From [Clostridium] citroniae WAL-17108 (GTDB lineage: Bacteria; Bacillota; Clostridia; Lachnospirales; Lachnospiraceae), in contig NZ_JH376420.1 of assembly GCF_000233455.1 (NCBI RefSeq), forward strand, positions 763,829 to 827,828: DNA of 64,000 nt. The letters run 5' to 3'. A program made the position numbers and the translations under genes. The notes under the pieces were generated by a model, which saw only the letters and a list, made by a program, of their open reading frames with translations, ran no database searches and had not been told where the DNA came from. Shown piece by piece: positions 39,810 to 54,030 of the stretch (the first letter of the stretch is position 1; each line of letters begins with the position of its first letter).

Positions 39810-42800
39810 TTATTTTTGCACGATTATATTATACAACGCGCTTTGATCTCCCAAAATAAAGATAAGTCGATAGGTCCCGTCCTGTGCATTTTGAGGAACA
39901 GCAATTGTAACAGAAGCATTATCCTCTGTCATTTGATTCTCTCCCGGGTCGATTTTTGTATTGCCCTTTATCTCCCAGCCTTCAACTCCAATATATGTAC
40001 CGTTTTCTTTTTTCCTGACCTCAACCTGAATCTTTGTGGGCTGTTCCACGTATTCCATTAAATATGATACCGTAAATGGGATAACTGTTCCCGGTGCAGC
40101 CACACGTCCCTCTTTTTCGTCTGCTTCCACACTAAGGTTATATACGGGATCAGCCTTTACTTCATAGGATACCCCGGTACTGCTGATAAGGCTTTTACCG
40201 GCATTTATACCTACTGCGAAAAGTTGAGCCTCCATACGATTGCCTTCCAAAGATAAACCCGTTGTATGGGTCGTATCCATAATAACCGTTTGGTCCTGGT
40301 TTTCATTCAGGATCAGGTACACATTTCCATTAATTGGATAGTAGTTTTTGTCTCCGTAAATAAATACGGTCCCCTTGGGGAACTCTTTCCCCGCCTGCGA
40401 TGAGAGCACCACTGCGGTTTTGTCTGATAGACGTGCATCCTGCTGTACGGAAACGGATATGCTTATGCTGTGTTCTCCTCTGGAAAAACCGCCCTGGCTG
40501 CCCAGTGTTATTGCAGCCATTGAATTATTGACTGTAAAATCCCCTCCTTTGGAGTCAGCTCCCGTGTCATTGCGCAGTCTGAGACTATATTCATCCGGTT
40601 TCAGGCCGCTTGTTCCGTCAAATGATACTATGACTGTAATGGTTTTAGAGGCAACGTTTTCTGTGAATTTATTGCTCTCCCACATCTGTGTAAAATGATT
40701 CAGCGGGATTTTCCCGTCCTGTTCCGTTCCCATTACAGTATAGAGATAGCATTGGCTTCCGCTCAGAAGTGTAAGCTTTGTACCGGCCGGCAGCTCATGT
40801 TTTGATCCATCTCCATTCTGCAGCTCCAGCCACACGCCGGAAGCGCCAATGACAGAATCCTGATTTTGAAGGGTAAAGGCCGCTGTAACAGAACTCTCCC
40901 GGGATATCACCACCGGTCCGGTATCCATCATGCCATTATATTGTTTTCCTGGCGCCATCCCGATAGCCGAAACAATGGATTCCTTCCAATGTATATTCAG
41001 TGTGACAGGCACCTGATTTCCATCCCCGTCCGTCAGGGTCAAAATAATCTCATCCGTGTCCTTAGGCGTAAAATCACCATTATTGTATAGCACAAAATCC
41101 ATTGGCGCCTCATACCGGCTGTCCGTGGTGCCGAGAAAGACCGCGCCCAATGATTTGTCATATGTGTACAGATCATATGGTTCACTCATCAGATTTGCAG
41201 TATTCCACCCCTGGCTCTGAACAGGCTGCAATGTAATTGCCACATCATAACCTTCCAGATCAGCTTTCACTGCTTTTAAGGCAATCCCGCTTTCAGGTAC
41301 CTTTATTCCGGCCAGGCTCAGGCTTCTGCTGGAATCCGCCGGGATCACCATTCTTCCCGTATAGCTTCCGCTCTCTGTTGCATAGAGATCAACGGTCTGT
41401 TCTGACAGCGCACTTGCTCTGGTGACGATCTCCACATTCAAGGTTACCACTTCCATCAGGTTGTTTCCCGCATAGCGTTCCACCACCACGGTCACAGTTC
41501 CCAGGTTCTGGCTTACCCGGATGCCGTCATTGTAATAGGTCAGATTAAATTCAATTTTGGGGATACCTGTACTATCCTGGACCGGCGCCGTGTAATCCCA
41601 ATCCTTTCCAATAACAGAGTTACTGCCGTTCTTAAGCGCCGTTTTATCGGAAATGACTCTGGACATCACATCCCCGTCTCCCAGCTCCTGCCGCATCATC
41701 AACCCAAAAGTGGTTGCCGGTGTGTTTTGTATCCTCTCTTTTTCCTGTGTTTCATCAATATCCACACCTGATGTAATCCATGTCCCTGTCTCCTGGTCCA
41801 GCCCTGCATCCACCAAAGCCAGTTTATCCGACAGCGTAATCTCACTGATAACATATCTGGAATCCTGCGCATCATCTATGGGAGGAAGCTCGATGGTACC
41901 TTCTGCAACAGCAAATCCATCCTCGCCCTGACCCGCATCCCCCAAATTCCGGGCAGTCAGAACCACATGGCGTGTAGCGCTGGCATTTTCCCCGGCCACT
42001 TTCCAGTAGCGGTACAATGTTCCTATATTGGTGTACCCCAGTTCCATATCTTCTCCGGGCACTACAAACCCTCCATCCGCTGGATTCAGGTCTGAGGTCT
42101 TTACTCTGGCAAATGCATATGCCTCTGCCGTATCTCCCGCGATCATATAAAAATATCCTGTAACAGCACCGTATTCCTCAGAGCCGTCCTGGGCTGTGCT
42201 GGAAATACGAAATACCGTTCCTGTGGCAAGGACCACTGTATTGGGAATATCCGCAAGGGTATCTTTAGTCACCGCATGATCCTCAGTTTGATCCATACTT
42301 TTCAGGTTTGCCACCCCATTGGATGCTGAATCCAATACCAATGTGCTTCCATCTTCTAAAACCAGGCTGTTCCCTAGTTTACCCAGGTTCTCGAAATTCC
42401 CCTTGTCTCCAATCCTGTTTAATGAATAAAGGGCCGTCTGGTTGGAATTGGCAACATCCGACTGGCCGGCCAGCCGGACATGGGACTGGATCAGACGTAC
42501 CTGGTCTGCTCTTTGTATTGACGTGACTGCGCCGCTAACCTGCTCCGGCTGACCCGTGTCAGGGGCAGCCGTGCCAAAATGATCCAGCGTTACCAGACGC
42601 ACGTCACCTGCATCACAGGATGCACCGCTGCCAAACACGCCTCCCCCTATCTCCATCTTTCCGGCACCGGCCCCATTAAAGCCATATCCGGTTCCGTCAA
42701 TATAAATATGGGAAAAACCGTTCACTGTTATAGTGTCATAGTCCAGATCAGCGCCGTCACCTCCGTAATCTCCTCCCGCATAGACCGAACCTCCCACAAC

Positions 42801-45800
42801 CAGGTCAGATGCACCCAAAACCGGCTTTTCGTCTGCATGGGATTTATAATAATTACATTTATCAACGGCCCCTGATCCAATGTGGACATGAGTGGATCCA
42901 TTGACAATCCCCTGAAATCCTCCGCCAAAGACCTTTCCTGTAACCGTACCGCCTGTCAGATTCACAAACACAAGACCGGCTGCGGAAGTCTCGTCCTGGA
43001 CTCCGCTTTTGCCGTCATTACTCAGTTCGCTTCCTCCATAGATATTTCCCCGCACCCATCCGCCTTCCATATTAACGGTGGAGCCTCCGTAAACAAAGCG
43101 GTCATCTGTCTTTCCCAGAGCCCCTCCATATATGGAGCCGTTTACCGTCCCGTTGGTCATATGTACAGCAGTCCTCCCATATGTGAGTCCTTCCTCCCCG
43201 CCTCCGTAAACATTTCCTTTGACGGTTCCCCCATTGATCATTACTTTTGTTGAACCCCGGACCTGGGCTGTCTTTCCTCCCCCGTAGATATAGCCTTCCA
43301 CAACTCCGTCCTTTATTTCAACCGTTACTTTGGTATCCTCACATACACGGGCACATGTTTCATACCCTGTCTTGCTGACGCCTTGGCCTCCGCCGTAGAT
43401 ATTGCCCCGGATCGTGCCTCCGCACACCGTGATATTGGCTTCCCCATTGAGATATGCGTTTTCCTTGCCGTACTCTTTGTCAATATAGCCTTTACCGCTT
43501 GCATATATACTGCCTGTTATAACAGCGTCATTGTCTATGGTAATGTTCGCTTGTCCGGTTAAGCTTCCAAACTCAGATGCCGGGGTACCGTTTTCTTCAT
43601 TGCCGCCGCTCACCTCCGAATCTCCGCCTATGCCTGCGGCATATATATTTCCCACAGTCCCCCCTGATACCTCTATATTTACCACTGACGGCTCTCCGCC
43701 GCTTACCACATATGCGGCGGAACCGGAACCATAGATGTTTGCGACATTTCCTCCCGTTACATGAATATCCAGTTTTCCCTGATAGGTTGGAATCCCTGTG
43801 TTCCTTCCCGAACCAGCACCATAGACATCCGTAACAGACCCGCCTGAAATATTTATCATTGTATTACCGCTATAGGGAGCTTTCACTTTATCGTAACCCT
43901 GGCATCCGCCGATCAGTTTTACTACTGTTCCTCCTTTAATATTGACGCTCACATTTCCATTCTTAATTTCCCCGCTGGCGCTTCCGGCTACGATACTGCT
44001 GACAACTGCGGTTCCGTCCACTGTGATAACCGCCTCGTTATCATTTGCGTCAACTGACGTTTTACTCCGTATATACCCGATGATCCTGTTAATCCGGCCA
44101 CTGCGGACTTCAATTCTGCCCGGTTTGACTGTCAAAGTCCCGTCTTTTGATGCTCCGTACAAATACAATCCGTTACATGTAACATCATCTCCAATGAGTA
44201 TACTATATCCATTGCCGTATATATGGCCCATGTCCCCCAAGGTCAGTGACTCAAAAGCGATATCTCCATATAGATAGAAGTCACTTGTTGCTGTTGCTGT
44301 GGTGCTGAAAAATTCAGTATTCTTTGTGATTCCTTTAATGGTCACAGGAACCGGAACATCCTTTAAAAAATGGGACACAGCGTCATAGTCATAATTTTGG
44401 AGTAAAATAATCTGGTTGTTATCCGCAGTTCCGCCCTCATCAGCGGGCTTTAATTTTGCAGCAGCCGCCTCAATTGTTTTAACCGGGGCACTCTCTATGC
44501 CTGGATTACTGTCGTTTCCATTGGTCTGGTCCACATAGACTGTTTCAAGCACAGCCACACCGTTTGCAGGTTCCGAGTACAGTGTATCAGGATTCTCTGC
44601 TCCAAAAGTCCTGGCCAGCTGAAGGAGCGTCACCGCACAGCGGAACCGCTTTGTGATATCTCCCGCTTCTACCAGACGCTCATATACAGGAGAGTCCGCG
44701 CCGGTGATGTCTTCCCATCCCCCATCCTCCCGGATATCCCCATCCTGTTCAGAACATTGCCACTGATACAAAAAGGCATATCCGTCCAGGCTTTTTACAG
44801 CTTCTTCTGTATCCTTATTGATCAAGGTGTAGACCGCGCGCTCCCCTTCCCGGTCCGCCTTAACACCCAGTTGGCATGTTCCAATGGCCTTCCATGCGGA
44901 ATACAGGCTTAGATAAACGTCCTCTCCCACATCCATATACGCTCCGGGCGCCAATGCTTCCTCCGGTCCTGTCCCCGGCGCCAAGGTCCACCCGGCAAAC
45001 TCTGTGGAAAAAAGGGCATTATCATCCCATGGGGACGTTATTTCTTCCGGGCATTCCGGCAGACAGATCTGACCTTCACGGGCCGGAAGTTCCATTTCCG
45101 CCACATCATCCAGGGCCACTGTAATATAACTGTCCGCCATCATATAACCGGCACATTCCGCTGCTTCAATAAATGTATCATTATCCGGAGAGCAGATGAC
45201 CATACCGGTCTGTCCCTCATAGAAAATTGTTTCCGGATTCTCTATCTTCTGCTGTGAAATATATTCAATGTCATAATCCGGATCTTTATCCTTATGGGTA
45301 TTGGAATCCTTTTTGGTGTTACTCCCTTTATCTTCCTTTCCTGCCTCAATCCCGGAAGGAAAATCCTGGGTTTGGCCATCCTCCTTGTCAGGGTTACCCG
45401 TATCAGGATTCACCGTATCATCTTCTGATGTCCCTGTTATATCCCCGGCCGTGGAATTGGTTTCATTGCCAGAACTGTCGTCCTTGGATGAGCCATTATC
45501 CTGCTCCTTGCCGCTGCTGTTCTGGGAAGAATCATCTCCCGGTAAATCCGGGGCGGTATCGGATGAGCCGGAGTTGTCTTCAGAATTATCTTCGGTGTTG
45601 TCTTCTGAGTTATCTTCAGAATTATCTCCGGAATTGTCTTTAGAATTGTCTTCGGAATTATCTCCACCAGTGTCTGAATTACCCTTGCCGGTATCGGTGT
45701 TTTCCCCGGAGTTGTCCGGAGTACCATCACTTGTACCGGCGTTTTCTCCGGCAGCGTCTGAACTGCCGCCATTTGTATCAACATTCTCTATGCCGCTGTC

Positions 45801-46808
45801 TGATTTTCCTTCAGAGGAATCGCCTCCCCCTGAAGTATCTGGATTTTCTTCCGCCATTCCCTCCCCCACACGGGGAACCTGATAATTTTCTATCCTGGCA
45901 GTGACTGAAAACAGCTTCTCCGGCTCTGTCTGGTCCGGCTCTGTCTGGTCCCGCTCTGTCTGGTCCGGTTCTTCCTGCCCTGTTTTCTCCTGGTCCGGCT
46001 CCTCTTTCCGGGTTTCTGCTTTCTTTGATTCCTCTTTTTTAGTTTCACCTTTCGTGGTCTGGTCTGTTTCTTCCTGATCCGGCTTATCCGCTGCGATCCG
46101 GTCCGGTTCTTCCTGATCCGGCTTATCCGCTGCGGTCTGGTCCGGTTCTTCCTGATCCGGCTTATCCGCTGCGGTCTGGTCCGGTTCTTCCTGGTCCGGT
46201 TCCTTATTCGTGGTTTGATCCAGTTCTTCCTTCGCTGAAGGGTCTGACTCTTTCTGGTCCGGCTGGTCCTTTTCCTCTGCCTGAGATGGGGTGGCCGGTT
46301 GGACAGGTTCACATTCTTCCGGCTCTGCCTTTTTCCATTCTGTGATCTCTCCTCCCTCAAATTCATTGCGGATCACAGTAAATCCCGGTGCCCGGTCCAG
46401 GCTTTCTCCTGAAAACGCATAATCACCGATCCCCACAATGCTTTCAGGAAGTATCAGCTCTCCCTGCAGTCCACCTAATCCATAGAATAAATAATCGCCG
46501 ATATAGGTGATCCCATCCTCAATGACCAATGCATGGATTTCATCCGCATATTCCGAAAAGGGGGCGGTATCTCCGGTAAAATCTCTTGTATCACCATATC
46601 CTCTAACGGTCAGCACGCCGTCTTTCAGGACTGCCTTCACATCACCGCCAATGTCAAAGGATTTTTTATTTCCTTCTGTCGCATATGCCAGCATGGACCC
46701 AAAGTTCAGATTGCTCAATATAAGGCATAAAGCAAGACACAACGCCAGCATACGCTGCCCATCGTATCTTTGCCTCCTCAATTGATGTTTCCGGCTTTTC
46801 CTATCCAT
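39810..46808 (-). CDS. Giant repeat-rich secreted surface protein (2332 aa)
   Basis: ATG 46808 behind GGAGGGAATGAG. Signal peptide with hydrophobic LALCLALCLILSNL and a probable cut after AYA. Residues about 60-150 resemble BspA-type leucine-rich repeats (ITYIGDYLFYGLGGLQGELILPESIVGIGDYAF). Residues 165-300 are Glu/Asp/Gln/Lys/Pro-rich with 13-residue EEPDQTAADKPDQ repeats; 325-520 are Asp/Ser/Asn/Gly-rich (DNSEDNSGDNS). About 850-1420 form a beta-helix-like array of GGTVxGNVYGGG units. Beyond this lie Ig-like/beta-rich modules to the end (YNIIVQK). No LPXTG, SLH or cell-wall-binding end is visible, so attachment may depend on the fibre proteins of the same operon. Probably an adhesin or fibre-tip/matrix protein. 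Confidence 0.85.
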   Translation of the reverse strand: MDRKSRKHQLRRQRYDGQRMLALCLALCLILSNLNFGSMLAYATEGNKKSFDIGGDVKAVLKDGVLTVRGYGDTRDFTGDTAPFSEYADEIHALVIEDGITYIGDYLFYGLGGLQGELILPESIVGIGDYAFSGESLDRAPGFTVIRNEFEGGEITEWKKAEPEECEPVQPATPSQAEEKDQPDQKESDPSAKEELDQTTNKEPDQEEPDQTAADKPDQEEPDQTAADKPDQEEPDRIAADKPDQEETDQTTKGETKKEESKKAETRKEEPDQEKTGQEEPDQTERDQTEPDQTEPEKLFSVTARIENYQVPRVGEGMAEENPDTSGGGDSSEGKSDSGIENVDTNGGSSDAAGENAGTSDGTPDNSGENTDTGKGNSDTGGDNSEDNSKDNSGDNSEDNSEDNTEDNSEDNSGSSDTAPDLPGDDSSQNSSGKEQDNGSSKDDSSGNETNSTAGDITGTSEDDTVNPDTGNPDKEDGQTQDFPSGIEAGKEDKGSNTKKDSNTHKDKDPDYDIEYISQQKIENPETIFYEGQTGMVICSPDNDTFIEAAECAGYMMADSYITVALDDVAEMELPAREGQICLPECPEEITSPWDDNALFSTEFAGWTLAPGTGPEEALAPGAYMDVGEDVYLSLYSAWKAIGTCQLGVKADREGERAVYTLINKDTEEAVKSLDGYAFLYQWQCSEQDGDIREDGGWEDITGADSPVYERLVEAGDITKRFRCAVTLLQLARTFGAENPDTLYSEPANGVAVLETVYVDQTNGNDSNPGIESAPVKTIEAAAAKLKPADEGGTADNNQIILLQNYDYDAVSHFLKDVPVPVTIKGITKNTEFFSTTATATSDFYLYGDIAFESLTLGDMGHIYGNGYSILIGDDVTCNGLYLYGASKDGTLTVKPGRIEVRSGRINRIIGYIRSKTSVDANDNEAVITVDGTAVVSSIVAGSASGEIKNGNVSVNIKGGTVVKLIGGCQGYDKVKAPYSGNTMINISGGSVTDVYGAGSGRNTGIPTYQGKLDIHVTGGNVANIYGSGSAAYVVSGGEPSVVNIEVSGGTVGNIYAAGIGGDSEVSGGNEENGTPASEFGSLTGQANITIDNDAVITGSIYASGKGYIDKEYGKENAYLNGEANITVCGGTIRGNIYGGGQGVSKTGYETCARVCEDTKVTVEIKDGVVEGYIYGGGKTAQVRGSTKVMINGGTVKGNVYGGGEEGLTYGRTAVHMTNGTVNGSIYGGALGKTDDRFVYGGSTVNMEGGWVRGNIYGGSELSNDGKSGVQDETSAAGLVFVNLTGGTVTGKVFGGGFQGIVNGSTHVHIGSGAVDKCNYYKSHADEKPVLGASDLVVGGSVYAGGDYGGDGADLDYDTITVNGFSHIYIDGTGYGFNGAGAGKMEIGGGVFGSGASCDAGDVRLVTLDHFGTAAPDTGQPEQVSGAVTSIQRADQVRLIQSHVRLAGQSDVANSNQTALYSLNRIGDKGNFENLGKLGNSLVLEDGSTLVLDSASNGVANLKSMDQTEDHAVTKDTLADIPNTVVLATGTVFRISSTAQDGSEEYGAVTGYFYMIAGDTAEAYAFARVKTSDLNPADGGFVVPGEDMELGYTNIGTLYRYWKVAGENASATRHVVLTARNLGDAGQGEDGFAVAEGTIELPPIDDAQDSRYVISEITLSDKLALVDAGLDQETGTWITSGVDIDETQEKERIQNTPATTFGLMMRQELGDGDVMSRVISDKTALKNGSNSVIGKDWDYTAPVQDSTGIPKIEFNLTYYNDGIRVSQNLGTVTVVVERYAGNNLMEVVTLNVEIVTRASALSEQTVDLYATESGSYTGRMVIPADSSRSLSLAGIKVPESGIALKAVKADLEGYDVAITLQPVQSQGWNTANLMSEPYDLYTYDKSLGAVFLGTTDSRYEAPMDFVLYNNGDFTPKDTDEIILTLTDGDGNQVPVTLNIHWKESIVSAIGMAPGKQYNGMMDTGPVVISRESSVTAAFTLQNQDSVIGASGVWLELQNGDGSKHELPAGTKLTLLSGSQCYLYTVMGTEQDGKIPLNHFTQMWESNKFTENVASKTITVIVSFDGTSGLKPDEYSLRLRNDTGADSKGGDFTVNNSMAAITLGSQGGFSRGEHSISISVSVQQDARLSDKTAVVLSSQAGKEFPKGTVFIYGDKNYYPINGNVYLILNENQDQTVIMDTTHTTGLSLEGNRMEAQLFAVGINAGKSLISSTGVSYEVKADPVYNLSVEADEKEGRVAAPGTVIPFTVSYLMEYVEQPTKIQVEVRKKENGTYIGVEGWEIKGNTKIDPGENQMTEDNASVTIAVPQNAQDGTYRLIFILGDQSALYNIIVQK
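46071..46190. repeat. 39-bp tandem repeats inside the giant surface gene
   Basis: Three near-identical 39-bp units start at 46071, 46110 and 46149 and encode EEPDQTAADKPDQ. A few third-position differences separate the copies. Slippage here would change the stalk length in steps of 13 residues without breaking the frame. Confidence 0.85.
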
Positions 46809-47650: not shown

Positions 47651-48214
47651 CTATTGCTGCTCAACCGGAATGGTCTGTTCCGAGCTGACCGTCAGTGTCA
47701 CCAAATCAATCTCATCCGCATATTCAGTGCCCGTCTGTTCCTCCGGCCATGTAACAGCCAGCGTATATGTATGAATAACAGAAACAGAATGGGGCAGATA
47801 ACCGCCCTTTACAACCGCCATTCCGTTATTTAAAGTTAATTTTCCATTTTCTCCGGTCTCCGCAAATGTTCCGCCATGATCGGGGCTGCTGATCTCAGGG
47901 GTGAGCGCAAATTCCAAAGGAAGATTGCCGGTGGTCTCCACCCCGATGGAATAGTCCTGCCCAACTTCACTTATCACTCCATCTTCCATGTTCGTAACTG
48001 AAAATATGTAATCCTTCGTTTTACCGGGGCGCAGCCCGTTTACATGAATATCAATGGCAGTGCTGCTGTTGCCCCAGGCTGCCACAGAAGCGGCGGCCGT
48101 TCCATCCGCCTGTGCCGTAAACCGCGCATAGGACAGAGACCAGGCAGATATGCCTGCTGCGGCAAGCAGCAAACCATATCCCACAATTCTGGATTTTGTC
48201 AAATGTTTTCTCAT
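47651..48214 (-). CDS. TasA/camelysin-like SipW-cognate subunit
   Basis: A 187-aa protein whose ATG overlaps the stop of the signal peptidase gene. RIVGYGLLLAAAGISAWSLSYARFTAQADGTAAASVAAW closely parallels the start of the TasA-like protein at 50569 (TLAKFVTEVEGTATATVAAW): a hydrophobic segment, then A-[RK]-F and SVAAW/TVAAW. The body contains LRPGKTKDYIFSVTNMEDG and a C-terminal LAVTWPEE strand typical of the family. Likely secreted after cleavage by the adjacent peptidase and incorporated in fibres. Confidence 0.75.
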   Translation of the reverse strand: MRKHLTKSRIVGYGLLLAAAGISAWSLSYARFTAQADGTAAASVAAWGNSSTAIDIHVNGLRPGKTKDYIFSVTNMEDGVISEVGQDYSIGVETTGNLPLEFALTPEISSPDHGGTFAETGENGKLTLNNGMAVVKGGYLPHSVSVIHTYTLAVTWPEEQTGTEYADEIDLVTLTVSSEQTIPVEQQ

Positions 48215-48702
48215 TCTGATAGATCCCCTCCTGGCCCCTTAACCATCCTGACCACATCCGCCCCCCAAATAAGCCATATGGCAAGCATCATGATCAACAT
48301 CATTCCTGCTGGATTTTTCAAAAATAGTACAGCCTTCCCAACCATAGGAATCACAACAGCCACCCTTCCTATGATATGATTTTCAGAAAGCAGTTCCTTG
48401 TCCGGAACATTATTGGCATCCCCTTTTGTCACAAATCCTTCCTGTGCCTTTTCCAAAATCCGATGAGTGACTGACAAGCCTCCGCTGTCAAACACAACAA
48501 TGTCTCCCACCCTGTATTCCTTCTCACGATGAACAATGACCAGATCACCGATTGACATTGACGGCTCCATACTGCCGGAAAGAATGACTGCCCGGGACCA
48601 CCCAAACAGCTCAGGCCGTATAAAGAAGCAAAGGTTCAGCAGTACTGCTATAACCAATGAGGCCAAAACCGCTGTGCGTAAACATTTTCCCATGCATCCC
48701 AT
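48211..48702 (-). CDS. sipW: SipW-type (ER-type) signal peptidase I, copy 1
   Basis: A 163-aa protein with two membrane segments (near residues 8-28 and 128-150). AVILSGSMEPSMSIGDLVIV carries the catalytic Ser (SGSMEP) and LSVTHRIL the His, giving the Ser-His dyad of archaeal/eukaryotic-type peptidases rather than the Ser-Lys of common SipS. AAAGGAGATGTC precedes the ATG. In Bacillus, SipW processes TasA and TapA; here the flanking genes encode similar substrates. One of two such enzymes in this operon. Confidence 0.9.
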   Translation of the reverse strand: MGCMGKCLRTAVLASLVIAVLLNLCFFIRPELFGWSRAVILSGSMEPSMSIGDLVIVHREKEYRVGDIVVFDSGGLSVTHRILEKAQEGFVTKGDANNVPDKELLSENHIIGRVAVVIPMVGKAVLFLKNPAGMMLIMMLAIWLIWGADVVRMVKGPGGDLSE

Positions 48703-48729: not shown

Positions 48730-50436
48730 TTAAGGTGCTTCCTGCTGGGCTGATATTTTAAGCCTGACCCTATAAGACTCACCTGCTTCGCCCGCCGCCG
48801 TGTCGATCCCATCATTTCCGCTCTCATACGGCCACTTCCACTCCAGAACATAGGAATGGCTCTCACCTGCACCCAGGCGCAGGGTATCACTTTTTACAGC
48901 GCTGCCTTTCTGCGTATCCCACCAGCCGGTAAGGGGCTTTTTGTCCCCTTCGGTTACGATCCGGAAACGCATGGGAATATGAATACTTCCTTCCTGAATT
49001 GACAGGTTACATGTAACATTAAAATCATTTTTATTTTCCAGTTTAAAAGGATAGCTGCCCTCCACCCCGGGCAAAAGAGTCTGATCATCTCCGGCCGGAC
49101 CGGAAAACAATTGGATTTCCTGGCCCTGTGTCCAGCTCACATAAAAATTCGGGATCGGTCCTTCATCTTCATGATCACCGGTGTTTCCGCTGTTTCCGCC
49201 ATCTCCGTTGGTGTCCCCGCTGTTTCCGCCGCCGCTGCCCCCGTTGGTATCTCCGTTACTTCCGCTGCTTCCTCCGTTGGTATTTCCGTTATTTCCACCA
49301 CCGCTGTCTCCGCTGGTATTTCCGTTATTTCCACCACTGCTGTCTCCGCTCGCCGCTCCGTTACTTCCGCCGCCGCCATTCATTTCCCCATTGTTTCCTT
49401 CGCCGTGTTCTTCCCTTTTTTCCGGCTTTTCCCCGTTTCCATCTGCATCATATATGCTTCCTGATATGCTTTCATCCGGATCCCCTTGTGCATTTGTACC
49501 TGATCCAATGGGAGACACCTGATTATCCCCGGATATAACAACGCCGCCTGCTCCCGGCTGCCCGCGCTGTCCGTCCGGGGTCAGGATTTCTGTGCCACTA
49601 TTATTTCTCTCTATGACCGTTCCGCCCGGCAGTATGATGTTCCCGTTTTCCATTATCCTGGTCCCATCGGGCAGTGATTGATCCTGATCCGGATAAACCA
49701 CTTCATTTTCAGGGGTCAGAAGAGCAATGCCCAAAGGACCTTCGCTTGCCGGCGCAATCACAGTTCCGTCTGCGCTGACCACCGCACCTCCGGGTGTTAC
49801 AAGGGTCCCCTCCCTTCTATGCGCTTCTCCTGTGGGGGTCACTATACGGCCCTCCTCTGTCAGGTAGGTCAGTTTCTCCGGATCAATATACAATGTGCTG
49901 TTCTCTTCATCCAGCTCAATCACCACTTCCAGCATCCTGACATCCACGGCAACTTCTATGGTGTACTTCCCGCTTTCCTTCAGGCTTACATTGACTCCCG
50001 AATCCGCCTGAGCCGCAAAAAGGTCAATGCTCCGCTCTCCCAAGACATTGCCTGCCGGGTCTAAAATCCGGACCTGATGTTCTCCGCCTTCCACATGGAA
50101 AAATGAAAAACCTCCAGCCGCATCCGTAACCGTTTCCCTGGGCTCACTGTGGAGCTGGACCCGCCCCCGTGCATAGGGCCGGCCATTGGTATAATTGATC
50201 TTTCCGGTCAAATGGAATATCTGCTGTATTGCAGACTCTCCTTCGGTTCCGTCAGGCGTGAGGAGTATCGTATCAATCCTCTGACCGGATGATCCCGGAA
50301 ATGCAGACCTGCCAAGAATATATCCAGCCGCACAGGATGACAAAAGCATAAGCAGAAATAACAGCAGTACGGGGATCCATTTATGATCCCCTGCCTTCTT
50401 TTCAGGAACAAAACTGTTCGGATGTTTTTTGATCAT
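48730..50436 (-). CDS. Anchored TasA-like protein with carboxypeptidase-regulatory-like domain and Gly/Asn/Ser stalk
   Basis: 568 aa from ATG 50436 (AGGAGAGGG upstream). One N-terminal membrane helix (VLLLFLLMLLSSCAAGYILG) is followed by a regulatory-like beta domain (FHLTGKINYTNGRPYARGRV ... GEHQVRILDPAGN). Then come imperfect TPGG/ADGT repeats (about 170-300), a Gly/Asn/Ser-rich stalk at about 350-425 (GNNGNTSGDSGG) and a C-terminal TasA-like domain (LPGVEGSYPFKLENKNDFNVTCNL ... YVLEWKWPYESGNDGIDTAAGEAG). The WxWP-E-GND motif is common to SipW-dependent proteins. No catalytic site. Plausible base or anchor of the fibre; a lipoprotein is possible (SSCAAG). Confidence 0.75.
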   Translation of the reverse strand: MIKKHPNSFVPEKKAGDHKWIPVLLLFLLMLLSSCAAGYILGRSAFPGSSGQRIDTILLTPDGTEGESAIQQIFHLTGKINYTNGRPYARGRVQLHSEPRETVTDAAGGFSFFHVEGGEHQVRILDPAGNVLGERSIDLFAAQADSGVNVSLKESGKYTIEVAVDVRMLEVVIELDEENSTLYIDPEKLTYLTEEGRIVTPTGEAHRREGTLVTPGGAVVSADGTVIAPASEGPLGIALLTPENEVVYPDQDQSLPDGTRIMENGNIILPGGTVIERNNSGTEILTPDGQRGQPGAGGVVISGDNQVSPIGSGTNAQGDPDESISGSIYDADGNGEKPEKREEHGEGNNGEMNGGGGSNGAASGDSSGGNNGNTSGDSGGGNNGNTNGGSSGSNGDTNGGSGGGNSGDTNGDGGNSGNTGDHEDEGPIPNFYVSWTQGQEIQLFSGPAGDDQTLLPGVEGSYPFKLENKNDFNVTCNLSIQEGSIHIPMRFRIVTEGDKKPLTGWWDTQKGSAVKSDTLRLGAGESHSYVLEWKWPYESGNDGIDTAAGEAGESYRVRLKISAQQEAP

Positions 50437-50476
50437 AATCCCTCTCCTCTGCCGGCAGACACGGCTGATATTCGGT

Positions 50477-50519
50477 CTAAGAGAAAAAACGCGGCGGCTT
50501 GCCACGTTCTTTCTCTTAG
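50477..50519 (-). terminator. Strong 19-bp hairpin after the main TasA-like gene
   Basis: CTAAGAGAAAAAACGCGGC (50477-50495) pairs with the 19 bases at 50501-50519 with two G-U pairs; the loop is 5 nt. A smaller GCCTCC/GGAGGC hairpin lies just after the stop (near 50545-50565). Without a trailing T run it may act mainly as an RNA-stabilising or attenuating structure that raises subunit over anchor expression. Confidence 0.7.
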
Positions 50520-50568: not shown

Positions 50569-51138
50569 TTAAGCTGTTGTGGATGTCGGTTCCACCTGGG
50601 TTCCGGTAGCTTTAATATCCAGTGTCCAGGACTTACCGGCATAGTCATTATCGTTACGTGCCGCGCCATAATCCCATTCCCAGTTAACGGTAATGGTCTT
50701 TTTCATGGCGTCAGCTCCATCTGCATAATTAATTGTTCCGGTTATGTCGCCCCCCAGATTATATGTTGTATCACCTACATTGAATATCAGATCATCCGGC
50801 AGGTCCACATCTGATGCCGCAGTAATCGTCACACTATAATCAATACCAACCTCACTGCCTGACCCGTCTAGCACAATATCAAATGATCCTTTTGTCCCTG
50901 GAGCAAGTACTGTATCTTTGATGGTGTCCCCCTCATAAGCGGTTCTTCCCATATCGATTCCGGTGAATTCGGTTCCGTTTCCAGCTGCCTCAAAATTCCA
51001 GGCCGCCACCGTTGCCGTTGCCGTCCCTTCTACCTCGGTTACAAACTTTGCCAATGTCCCTCCTGTCAGACAGGTTGTCATCAGAGTCAATACCAAGGCT
51101 AATGCACCAAGACGCGCTACATAAGATTTTTCTTTCAT
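50569..51138 (-). CDS. TasA/camelysin-like major fibre subunit candidate
   Basis: A 189-aa protein. The ATG at 51138 has GAGAGGA upstream. The signal region ARLGALALVLTLMTTCLTGGTLAKF is followed by a VTEVEGTATATVAAW stretch, then a beta-rich body with APGTKGSFDIVLDGSGSEVGIDYSVTI and TVNWEWDYGAARNDNDYAG, the typical SipW-cognate fold (Camelysin/TasA, Pfam M73-like). It is the simplest protein in the operon and precedes a stable hairpin, as expected for a major subunit. Probably exported by Sec, cleaved by one of the two SipW-type peptidases and polymerised outside the cell. Confidence 0.82.
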   Translation of the reverse strand: MKEKSYVARLGALALVLTLMTTCLTGGTLAKFVTEVEGTATATVAAWNFEAAGNGTEFTGIDMGRTAYEGDTIKDTVLAPGTKGSFDIVLDGSGSEVGIDYSVTITAASDVDLPDDLIFNVGDTTYNLGGDITGTINYADGADAMKKTITVNWEWDYGAARNDNDYAGKSWTLDIKATGTQVEPTSTTA

Positions 51139-51300: not shown

Positions 51301-51933
51301 TTACAATCCAGGCTCTTTTTCTTCCTGTCCCATCTTCTCCCTGGCCCTGTAGCTGTACAATTCCGCCTCCAGATCAGCCCTATGCTTAGCCTCTTTCCTG
51401 TCAAGCTCCCTTCTTCTCCAGATGTCCCACAGGATAAACAGGCAAAGAGGGCATATCATAAACAAGATCATTCCTGTTGTGGACTGCATAAACATGATCC
51501 CATTGCCCAGTCCTGTAATCTTTCCTCCCCGCCAGATTCCCTGCACCTGGTCCGCTCTCACAGCTTTCCGGTCTGCCGTGTTGTTCCCATCGCCCTGTGT
51601 AATGTACCGCACCTGACCGTCTTCCCCCTCCCGGACCGCCACAATCCTATGGGTGATGGCCTGGCCGGAGTCCAGATAACAGATCACGTCCCCTGTTTGA
51701 AGCAGGTCCGGATCTGTTTTATGTAAAAATATCATATCCCCTGTCAGAATCTCCGGCTCCATGGAACCGGATAGGACAATGGCCGGTTTTACTCCAAATA
51801 CCCCCGGCATCTCGCCCGGCTTTGTGTAGGTACTGATGATCAATGTCAGGTTTATAACGATCACAGGAATAAAGATCATACACAATATCCCGCCTATCAC
51901 AGACCCAATTGAACATTTCTTTTGTTTGCTCAT
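51301..51933 (-). CDS. sipW: SipW-type (ER-type) signal peptidase I, copy 2
   Basis: 210 aa from ATG 51933 behind AAAGGAGG; the longer ORF to 51999 overlaps the small ORF upstream. IGSVIGGILCMIFIPVIVINLTLII is the first membrane helix. AIVLSGSMEPEILTGDMIFL has the catalytic Ser and SGQAITHRIVAV the His. A second hydrophobic segment (TTGMILFMICPLCLFILWDIW) precedes a charged tail (RRRELDRKEAKHRADLEAELYSYRAREK). First large gene of the operon. Two peptidases suggest division of labour between substrates. Confidence 0.9.
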   Translation of the reverse strand: MSKQKKCSIGSVIGGILCMIFIPVIVINLTLIISTYTKPGEMPGVFGVKPAIVLSGSMEPEILTGDMIFLHKTDPDLLQTGDVICYLDSGQAITHRIVAVREGEDGQVRYITQGDGNNTADRKAVRADQVQGIWRGGKITGLGNGIMFMQSTTGMILFMICPLCLFILWDIWRRRELDRKEAKHRADLEAELYSYRAREKMGQEEKEPGL

Positions 51934-51935
51934 TT

Positions 51936-52106
51936 CTATTCCTCCTTTGGGGAGATGTTTTGCTGCATCTTCTGCCGGATTCGGAATACCTCCCGGCAAA
52001 ACTCTATATAATCCATGTCAGTCTCTTGTGTATCCCGTCTTTCCCATTCCGGATCAGCCCCATTTGTAAATACATTGACAACAAACTGGTTTTTATCATG
52101 CTTCAT
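51936..52106 (-). CDS. 56-aa leader ORF at the head of the fibre operon
   Basis: ATG 52106 with AGAGGAAA upstream; the TAG at 51936 is 2 bp from the peptidase start, a coupling arrangement. The product begins MKHDKNQFVVNVFTNGADPE and ends QQNISPKEE. It is rich in charged residues with a central VNVFTNGADPEWERR stretch and a helical MDYIEFCREVFRIRQKM end. No signal peptide. No family recognised. It might regulate the operon or simply couple translation. Confidence 0.6.
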   Translation of the reverse strand: MKHDKNQFVVNVFTNGADPEWERRDTQETDMDYIEFCREVFRIRQKMQQNISPKEE

Positions 52107-52192: not shown

Positions 52193-52229
52193 AAAATAAA
52201 AAGCCGATGCTGCATGCGTCAGCCGGCTT
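52193..52229 (-). terminator. Riboswitch expression platform: intrinsic terminator
   Basis: On the minus strand AAGCCGGCTG (52229-52220) pairs with CAGC-AT-CGGCTT (52212-52201) with a 2-base bulge and 7-nt loop. TTTATTTTG follows (52200-52192). It is 87 bp before the 56-aa ORF and 10 bp after the aptamer. GGCTGA of its first arm can alternatively pair with TCAGCC at the aptamer 3' end (52246-52251), the usual antiterminator logic. Confidence 0.85.
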
Positions 52230-52237
52230 ACTAAATC

Positions 52238-52316
52238 CTGCAGCTGGCTGACATCCCTGTTAAAAGGGGAAATCCCTGTAGCTTTGCGTCACTAGCTTTC
52301 GCTAGTTTTGCTGATC
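52238..52316 (-). ncRNA. GEMM-I (c-di-GMP-I family) riboswitch aptamer
   Basis: Minus-strand RNA contains GCAAAA, then the CTAGC-GAAA-GCTAG tetraloop stem, TGACGCAAAGCTACAGGG (the diagnostic core), a second stem GGG...CCC, and the closing ATGTCAGCCAGCTGC. These are the conserved elements of the GEMM-I aptamer, including the GNRA loop and ACGCAAAGC. It lies between the invertible segment and a terminator in the leader of the fibre operon, so a cyclic dinucleotide should set read-through. Aligned by hand to the Vibrio Vc2 aptamer, the ligand-contacting base G20 appears to be A here, a feature of GEMM-Ib variants that can prefer 3',3'-cGAMP. Confidence 0.88.
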
Positions 52317-52352
52317 GATCATTTATATTATGGGGTATTTCTAAAGGAAGCA

Positions 52353-52365: not shown

Positions 52366-52389
52366 ATTACATAATATACATTATGTAAT
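52366..52389. repeat. Left inverted repeat (recombination site) of the invertible segment
   Basis: ATTACATAAT (52366) and ATTATGTAAT (ending 52389) form an internal palindrome around ATAC. The 21 bases 52369-52389 are the exact reverse complement of 52574-52594. Such internally symmetric sites are typical of tyrosine recombinase targets. Confidence 0.85.
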
Positions 52390-52573
52390 AGAATTCCGAC
52401 TGAAAGCATAGCAACACTTTCGTGGGGAACATTCGCCATATCCAAATTCAACTCTGCTCATGTGTTTTGGAAAAAATAGTGAAAAGTAAGAGGCCGGAAT
52501 CCGGAAAAGTATTGAAAAAAACAGGTTTTAGATGCATAATAAAAACAGGATTAGGAAAACACATTTATTGGCC
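52390..52573. other. Invertible DNA segment (phase switch) carrying an outward promoter
   Basis: 184 bp bounded by perfect 21-bp inverted repeats, directly beside a tyrosine recombinase gene and upstream of the riboswitch and fibre operon. It contains no gene. Its best promoter (52512-52540) reads to the right, away from the operon; inversion would place it about 100 bp upstream of the riboswitch reading into it. Therefore the sequenced orientation is predicted OFF. Confidence 0.8.
52512..52540 (+). promoter_or_regulatory. Sigma-A-type promoter inside the invertible segment
   Basis: TTGAAA (52512-52517), exactly 17 bp, CATAAT (52535-52540). No comparable promoter reads in the other direction. 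In the present orientation transcription would enter the 3' end of the recombinase gene antisense. After inversion the elements would fall near 52446-52451 and 52423-52428 and drive the minus-strand operon. Confidence 0.75.
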
Positions 52574-52594
52574 ATTACATAATGTATATTATGT
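52574..52594. repeat. Right inverted repeat (recombination site) of the invertible segment
   Basis: ATTACATAATGTATATTATG plus one T, the exact reverse complement of 52369-52389. It ends 10 bp before the last base of the recombinase stop codon. Confidence 0.85.
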
Positions 52595-52604
52595 TCTGGT
52601 CTTT

Positions 52605-53450
52605 TTATATTAGAAGGCACATCCTTGATAAAACACGGGCATGTTCTTCTTCACTGGTAAATGTATAGATCCTGGTATACTCAATATTGGAATGTCCTAA
52701 TATATCGGCCAGATGCACGATATCCTTCTGCATCCGGTAATATGTGACTGCAAACAGGTGGCGCAGATTGTGGGGAAAGACTTTTTCAGGGCTGACTCTT
52801 GCGGTTTTGCACAATGCTTTCATTTCCGCCCATACATTGCACCGGTTGACCGGAGTCCCATTTTTAGTAATAAAAACAGGCCCTGAATGGATCTCATTCT
52901 GGCGGCAGTATTGGATCAGGCTTTTTTTCAGCTTCTTTGGCAAAAAGACCGCCCGCTCCTTGCCTTTGTTGTAAATGGTAACATTTCCCCTTTCCAATGC
53001 CTCCCTTGTGATAAACCGGTGTTCACTGACCCGGATGCCGGTACTGCAGATTGCCTGGATCATCAGGAACAAACGGCTGCTGGATTTCGCCTTTGCCGCC
53101 AGAGCCAGCCTGTTGTACTCTTCTTTTGTCAGTTCCTTGTCCTTTTTGCGGAACGGGCTTCTCTGTATTTTAAACAGCTTTACCTGGCAGTCCTTTTTTT
53201 GGATAAAATCCAAAAAACGGTTCACTGACACCAGCATACTGTTGGCGCTGGTGGTCTTGTATCCCTCTATGATCGCCTGTTTATAGCCGATCACCACCTC
53301 TTTTGAGATTTCCCCACCGTCAGGCAGCCATGAAAGAAACGCCCGCACATCTCTTCCGTATTTCTCAATGGTTGCACCGGAGCGCTCTTCCTCCAATAAA
53401 TAATTTCTAAACCGGTATAGCTTATCCTCTAATTCACCATGGATTTTCAT
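52605..53450 (-). CDS. Tyrosine recombinase (predicted DNA invertase of the fibre switch)
   Basis: 281 aa from ATG 53450 behind AGGAGGAAGC. An N-terminal SAM-like DNA-binding core (about 10-95: YLLEEERSGATIEKYGRDVRAFLSWL) and a catalytic domain. All catalytic residues are present: Arg140 (STGIRVSE), Lys about 162-164 (NKGKERAVFL), His227 and Arg230 (HNLRHLFA), His253 (LGHSNIEY), Tyr262 (TRIYT). It is a compact stand-alone integrase-like protein without phage genes around. It is next to the inverted repeats it would act on, like RecV and other phase-variation invertases of Clostridia. Transcribed toward the switch. Confidence 0.9.
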   Translation of the reverse strand: MKIHGELEDKLYRFRNYLLEEERSGATIEKYGRDVRAFLSWLPDGGEISKEVVIGYKQAIIEGYKTTSANSMLVSVNRFLDFIQKKDCQVKLFKIQRSPFRKKDKELTKEEYNRLALAAKAKSSSRLFLMIQAICSTGIRVSEHRFITREALERGNVTIYNKGKERAVFLPKKLKKSLIQYCRQNEIHSGPVFITKNGTPVNRCNVWAEMKALCKTARVSPEKVFPHNLRHLFAVTYYRMQKDIVHLADILGHSNIEYTRIYTFTSEEEHARVLSRMCLLI

Positions 53451-53676: not shown

Positions 53677-54030
53677 TCAGATATGCATATGTATCTGTTG
53701 GGGCATTGTCAGGGTTATCCCATATGCCTGTGCGACAAAATTGGAAACAATCGCCATGTACATGGCTGCACCGGCCATATTGATGGTGTTGCCCAGGGGC
53801 ACCAGAAAGCTGCTGACTTCCGGTGTCAATCCCAATTTCTCGGAAGCCCGCATATTAGACGGAAGCACTGCCATATTTGAAGTGGTACTAAAAACAATGA
53901 GCAGCGGTTCCTGCATCGCGTCCAGAAATTGTTTAGGTGTAATCTTGCAGATAAAAAACAGCATTGGGGCATAAACTACCAATATAAATACAATAATGCA
54001 TCCATATACAGGATCATTTTTCCAAGGGGC
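53677..54030 (-). pseudogene. C-terminal remnant of a dicarboxylate/amino acid:cation (DAACS) symporter
   Basis: The frame reads DPVYGCIIVFILVVYAPMLF, then ITPKQFLDAMQEPLLIVFSTTSNMAVLPSN and SSFLVPLGNTINMAGAAMYMAI. These are the hairpin 2 / TM7-8 motifs (serine-rich STTSN and NTINMAGAA) of the GltP/DctA family. The first about 250 residues and the normal C terminus are missing and a stop lies just upstream. A truncated gene with its terminator left. Confidence 0.85.

Follow-up and report, generated by a model that had tools for sequence, protein, structure and literature searches.

In Bacillus subtilis, the TasA-SipW pair consists of a SipW-type peptidase and, encoded beside it, a small secreted protein rich in beta structure. 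The same gene pairing is found in the stretch of [Clostridium] citroniae DNA analysed here (64,000 nucleotides, hereafter the window), but the window gives no match to the TasA family models and its regulation differs from that of B. subtilis. For Clostridium perfringens, the bimodality of the sipW-bsaA operon requires a two-component system and pilA2 (PMC7395162). That operon resembles the one in the window as a SipW-dependent operon for matrix fibres, expressed there by an ON subpopulation; unlike for the window, DNA inversion is nowhere mentioned in the accessible part of that account (PMC7395162). In Clostridioides difficile, an activating riboswitch of class II, transcribed from a promoter of its own (P1), stands 5' of the cmrRST switch (PMC8844915, PMC6837544); P1 works independently of P2, the promoter of the switch (PMC8844915). 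In the C. difficile flagellar (flg) switch (see also PMC5386303), the invertible element acts after initiation of transcription, by a mechanism called uncharacterised (PMC6837544). Among gut invertons, group 139, which is linked to an invertase group of Clostridia (group 35), has repeats of about 26 nt around about 205 bp, and its orientation shifts in culture (PMC11892184).

As judged from its sequence, the window probably carries a recombinase-linked promoter switch ahead of a SipW/TasA-type fibre operon and the c-di-GMP-I riboswitch in its leader. As far as the accessible text of the cited reports goes, it would share with C. difficile cmr the control of one operon by a c-di-GMP riboswitch together with an invertible element that carries a promoter. 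Unlike in cmr, however, the segment lies 5' of a c-di-GMP-I aptamer, the aptamer precedes the operon, and the recombinase gene is adjacent. A cmr-type arrangement, in which the invertible element comes after the riboswitch, was rejected, the order in the window being reversed. Since the aptamer is situated between switch and operon, both layers would act in series, in contrast to the parallel arrangement of cmrRST. With C. difficile flg it would share a class I c-di-GMP riboswitch that terminates transcription and, ahead of a single surface operon, an invertible element, but the segment of the window holds a promoter-like site and precedes the riboswitch. It resembles group 139/35 in the position of a tyrosine recombinase gene beside inverted repeats in Clostridia, and the recombinase family of the window may be that very group; the accessible part of the text mentions neither "signal peptidase" nor "flagell" (PMC11892184).

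Among the papers listed from the literature searched (subscription papers and preprints lay outside it), there was no apparent report of an invertible or phase-variable SipW or TasA operon, and the combination of an invertible promoter with a c-di-GMP riboswitch was reported there for C. difficile only. The statement of an earlier note on this DNA, that no invertible switch of a SipW/TasA-type operon is described, thus stood; the same genome holds a second such operon (L042, below). The interest lies in the proposed wiring of two controls in series and in a fibre operon as their target, recombinase-linked promoter inversion being already known, and the series arrangement with a riboswitch is more unusual than an inverton before a SipW/TasA operon.

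Organization of the locus

Along the minus strand, the recombinase gene is followed by one repeat, the 184-bp segment, the other repeat, the aptamer, a hairpin and the operon (Table 1). The arms of the repeat are 21 nt long, 100% complementary and 184 nt apart. Across the 64-kb window, no other inverted repeat of at least 14 nt had its arms spaced by 80-700 bp, and in 20 dinucleotide shuffles of the window the longest inverted repeat was 11-14 nt each time. Each 21-bp arm is in addition internally symmetric (ACATAAT-ATAC-ATTATGT). Such symmetry around ATAC is what a site for two recombinase subunits should show. The perfect repeats around 184 bp, their internal symmetry and the complete tyrosine recombinase gene ending 10 bp away, all described in the earlier note, were borne out by the repeat search, by reading of the arms and by the open reading frame, respectively.

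Table 1. Features of the locus in window coordinates (strand "." where a feature has no direction).
Feature	Position	Strand	Basis or remark
Tyrosine recombinase (297 aa), predicted to invert the segment	52605..53498	-	PF00589, PF02899, XerA alignment
Recombinase-proximal inverted repeat (predicted crossover site)	52574..52594	.	sequence, repeat search
Predicted invertible segment, 184 bp	52390..52573	.	enclosed by both repeats
Promoter-like TTGAAA-17-CATAAT within the segment	52512..52540	+	faces away from operon, predicted OFF
Operon-proximal inverted repeat (predicted crossover site)	52369..52389	.	sequence, repeat search
c-di-GMP-I riboswitch aptamer	52236..52322	-	RF01051, full length 1-87
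Predicted intrinsic terminator of riboswitch (hairpin, then U-tract)	52200..52232	-	folding
Small ORF, 55 aa, first of operon	51939..52106	-	similar reading frame in L009; no NCBIfam match
SipW-like (ER-type) signal peptidase	51301..51933	-	TIGR02228, 95.1 bits (cut-off 51.85)
Predicted TasA-like fibre subunit, secreted (189 aa)	50569..51138	-	homologues, weak TasA fold match
Large secreted protein	48730..50505	-	weak CarboxypepD_reg match, below cut-off
Second SipW-like signal peptidase	48211..48702	-	PF00717 36.6 and PF10502 29.9 bits, both over cut-off
Secreted protein, 187 aa	47651..48214	-	kept in same operon of G002, G007, G009
Secreted protein, 258 aa	46862..47638	-	kept in same operon of G002, G007, G009
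Giant surface protein, 2332 aa (predicted adhesin)	39810..46808	-	homologues in same place in G002, G007

The promoter-like site of the segment was scored with weights that we set ourselves, derived from the promoter consensus. With these weights, the score of TTGAAA-17-CATAAT was equalled in 1.8% of 1000 shuffled segments, and a simple promoter scan over 801 bp listed two promoter-like sites, where shuffles gave 2.6 (sd 2.0). The site noted earlier as facing away from the operon was thus found in its place, but the scan was no richer than the shuffles; as a consensus match only, it is by itself within chance and is weak evidence. The best promoter score toward the operon rose from 6.9 as sequenced to 13.8 after inversion in silico, which would leave about 100 bp from the -10 element to the aptamer. 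In the sequenced orientation, the stretch that separates the operon-side repeat from the aptamer held no site above 6.9 toward the operon.

The recombinase matched PF00589 with 84.6 bits (cut-off 27.1) and PF02899 with 30.6 bits (cut-off 22.3), and was aligned to XerA (5hxy) across 21-283 with an E-value of 1.7e-15. In this alignment it keeps the R, K, H-x-x-R, H and Y positions, which we take to be the catalytic residues. A housekeeping XerC or XerD was rejected as its identity, the scores of 110.4 and 103.9 being below the respective equivalog cut-offs of 329.6 and 335.15. Named Enterocloster proteins are at most 90% identical to it (Enterocloster bolteae, 90%). As inferred from position and sequence, this recombinase would act on the two 21-bp sites. 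A short open reading frame adjoins the recombinase gene (53677-53982, minus strand), presumably a fragment of a dicarboxylate symporter.

Recombinase-linked repeats throughout the genus

Matches to the recombinase numbered 19 in the source genome, and at least one was detected in each of the 17 genomes of the genus. A set of 46 loci was then compiled from 40 fetched regions and six further loci, the window included. A repeat pair was located directly behind the recombinase gene in 39 of the 46 (38 of 45 without the window); 38 of these pairs have arms of at least 16 nt within 100 bp of the end of the tblastn match, and the 39th (L043) is split by a run of N. The pair was missing from seven loci (L010, L011, L030, L045, L047, L053 and L060), among which L010 ends after 66 bp at a contig end and L047 has N in that place. 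L053 and L060 each retain one palindromic site, and these single leftover palindromes indicate that such switches do decay. At five loci with distant recombinases (L007, L008, L025, L026 and L027; 28-35% identical), no repeat pair was found. According to our reading, the site motifs fall into about three classes, ACATAAT/ATTATGT, ACCACAGAAT/ATTCTGTGGT and TACAACAGAAT/TTTGTTGTA. By consensus promoter score, the 39 segments were assigned as 27 OFF, 9 ON and 3 unclear.

Genes behind the switches are of various kinds. A Pfam scan of 20 proteins encoded there gave three CpsB/CapC capsule proteins and one each of FliF, Cna_B and choline-binding type, together with five others (HisRS-like, BTAD, two AP2 and one transposase-like); nine were without match. 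Rfam scans of 37 paralogous or related loci detected two tRNAs only, and thus no c-di-GMP riboswitch beside these other switches. In the same genome as the window, L042 (G000:C8:167000-183000) holds a second repeat-flanked segment behind a recombinase gene, followed by an operon whose products include a Cna_B protein, a SipW-dependent protein of the BsaA family and a SipW-like peptidase; loci similar to L042 were observed in two other species (L063 and L066). Flagellar regions follow the recombinase gene at L065 (G004:C6, FliF), with a full repeat pair, and at L060 (G001:C1), with its one palindromic site. Two or three copies of the site stand on one side at L044, L059, L067, L071 and L073, which include capsule-type and other switches. 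The recombinase of L011 (CAOKVX010000021.1), a locus without repeat pair, is more distant, and the gene after it presumably encodes an antiterminator of NusG/LoaP type.

Orientation of the segment

The orientation of the segment was compared for 14 pairs of loci, which we picked from a comparison of the segments. In four pairs belonging to three groups (L061/L062, L075/L076, L015/L054 and L015/L055), the segment was reversed between co-linear flanks; in a fifth (L058/L059) it was reversed and the operon side was without match. The remaining nine pairs, among them the window and L009, showed the same orientation. Within the source genome, the closest paralogue (L040, G000:C2:385000-399000; 53% identical) carries its 246-bp segment in both orientations across a run of 175 N: a recombinase end, a site and the segment are followed by the N run, and then by a recombinase end, a site, the exactly reversed segment and the far site. 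The repeated recombinase end is identical except for one inserted base near its start. The simplest reading of this sequence would be two overlapping contigs from a culture containing both orientations; the N run could instead stand for a withheld stretch or a real duplication. The opposite orientations in three orthologous groups, together with this paralogue, indicate that the family inverts.

A contig search returned three loci, of which L009 in genome G012 is the orthologous one; none was found in viral contigs. The L009 segment is 81% identical to that of the window over 173 nt and has the same, predicted OFF, orientation. Identity is 81% for SipW, 76% for TasA and 64% for the recombinase. 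Both promoter hexamers and their spacing of 17 are identical in L009, which keeps both sites as well. The earlier note had proposed a comparison of orientation across genomes and conservation of the repeats in relatives as checks. Sister loci were observed in both orientations, the window and L009 being alike, both sites are kept in L009, and a repeat pair follows the recombinase gene in 39 of the 46 loci. Its proposal that inversion aims the promoter at the riboswitch and operon is favoured by the promoter scores in silico and by inversion within the family; against this stands L009, the single orthologue compared, in which the reversed orientation of this very locus was not seen.

In the L061/L062 segments, a promoter-like site and a strong terminator face opposite ways, so that flipping would exchange promoter for terminator in front of the operon. 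The idea that a segment always carries a terminator opposing its promoter was rejected, since this arrangement, clear in L061/L062, was not found in the window, where the search of the segment gave no terminator.

Riboswitch and fibre operon

The aptamer matched RF01051 with 62.4 bits (cut-off 35) and is the sole such match in the genome. The terminator hairpin gave -12.4 kcal/mol when folded alone and is missing from the list of the simple terminator scan. For the whole leader, the free minimum of -38.4 kcal/mol contains an antiterminator, in which GUCAGCC pairs with GGCUGAC. When the aptamer was enforced in folding, the terminator formed at -33.2 kcal/mol, the two folds being 5.2 kcal/mol apart. 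This energy model, which sets the direction of the riboswitch (ligand = OFF), predicts that binding of c-di-GMP permits the terminator and that the riboswitch is of OFF type. This fits what the accessible text describes for riboswitches of class I in C. difficile (PMC9286219).

The operon is formed by co-directional reading frames from 52106 down to 39810, and the recombinase gene runs in that direction too. The first peptidase matched SEC11C among PDB entries (E 1.9e-12), and the second scored 102.8 bits with TIGR02228 (cut-off 51.85). Both fall within this ER/archaeal-type signal peptidase I family, the wider clade of SipW; with the equivalog model of B. subtilis SipW (NF046067, cut-off 190) they score 107.7 and 69.7. 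The TasA-like protein has 161 homologues, mostly unnamed, and is 53-54% identical to those of E. lavalensis and E. asparagiformis. Together with the named relatives of the recombinase, these homologues point to Enterocloster as the probable genus of the source. It gave a weak fold match to B. subtilis TasA and no match in Pfam or NCBIfam. The TasA and BsaA models (TIGR04090 and TIGR04088) did not match this protein at E-values up to 1, nor did a profile of the TasA relatives match any PDB sequence.

Among the 17 genomes of the genus, five matched the TasA profile and five the c-di-GMP-I model. The riboswitch lies directly before a SipW/TasA operon at two places in G002 and at one in G007. A fixed promoter-like site stands in front of it in G002 (L096) and in G007 (score 10.4 in L096 and L098). 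For these operons, neither a recombinase match in the 18-kb stretch nor a repeat pair of at least 14 nt in the 3 kb upstream was found. In G012, the inverton occurs with a terminator-like hairpin but no aptamer; in G009 the operon is present, and neither inverton nor riboswitch was found beside it. The window alone of these carries inverton and riboswitch in series, the inverton occupying the place of the fixed promoter of G002 and G007. The inverton may have been gained first, or the fixed promoter lost first.

In the bacterial family, 90 of 250 genomes gave c-di-GMP-I matches. We scanned 101 riboswitch loci, which are part of the listed matches and include some places twice or overlapping and one shortened; an inverted repeat of at least 13 nt was present at 8 of these 101, and at two directly behind a recombinase gene, the window (L080) and G146 (L159/L193). 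G146 is thus the one further case outside the genus, among these loci, of the order recombinase, repeats and c-di-GMP-I aptamer. There, a fixed TTGACA-17-TAAAAT lies between repeats and aptamer, just before the aptamer. This locus (L193, G146:C14:20000-32000), from another genus of the family, has a 17-nt repeat pair and is followed by an ABC-transporter-like cluster. Elsewhere, at L102 (G002:C1:1857000-1872000), a tandem pair of c-di-GMP-I aptamers precedes a repeat-rich surface protein.

Discussion

The tyrosine recombinase, whose gene ends 10 bp from the nearer 21-bp repeat, is the likely invertase of the 184-bp segment. Inversion would turn the segment's one strong promoter-like site toward the riboswitch and the fibre operon; the present orientation would be OFF. 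Transcripts started at the switched promoter in ON cells would all still run through the riboswitch, and the two controls, DNA orientation and c-di-GMP, would thus act in series. As c-di-GMP is predicted by folding to let the terminator form, fibres would be expected only from ON cells with low c-di-GMP. A fuller scheme, possible but on balance doubtful, is a two-key series switch, in which the module was placed before an operon already controlled by a riboswitch and the OFF promoter, by antisense transcription through its own recombinase gene, steadies the OFF state.

The copy in the window might have become locked, the family still switching and the operon being silent or otherwise driven. 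The shared orientation of the window and L009 and the single leftover palindromes at L053 and L060 are in line with such a relic, which is nevertheless unlikely: the recombinase is complete with its catalytic positions kept, both arms are perfect over 21 nt, and recombinase, both sites and promoter hexamers are kept in another species although the segment is only 81% identical. Transcription of the operon could also be independent of the segment, by read-through from the recombinase gene or from a fixed promoter, leaving the riboswitch as sole control as in G002 and G007. Co-directionality of recombinase and operon, the failure to find a terminator inside the segment, the fixed promoter-like sites of the relatives (L096 and L098) and that of G146 would all suit this reading. 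We consider it very unlikely, as the stretch from repeat to aptamer holds nothing above 6.9 toward the operon as sequenced and the inverton sits where G002 and G007 have their fixed promoter. Finally, the flipping promoter might mainly serve the recombinase, running antisense through its gene at present and setting the rate of switching. The site does face the 3' end of the recombinase gene, 65 bp away with no terminator found between, and the same geometry recurs in the 27 of 39 segments scored OFF; yet members of the family precede varied surface operons, which suggests those operons as the target and makes a service to the recombinase highly improbable. The reading as a promoter switch for the fibre operon is therefore preferred.

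If this promoter switch operates as proposed, the output of SipW/TasA-type fibres in a gut commensal would be heritable yet reversible, with an additional check by a second messenger. The locus would also join a family spread through the genus, whose surface operons, be they for capsule, flagella, surface proteins or fibres, each have a recombinase and sites of their own. G002 and G007 with the riboswitch only, G012 with the inverton only and the window with both provide a natural test of the gain and loss of a switch in an existing leader. The same comparison bears on AND-type logic as against the parallel logic reported for cmrRST of C. difficile.
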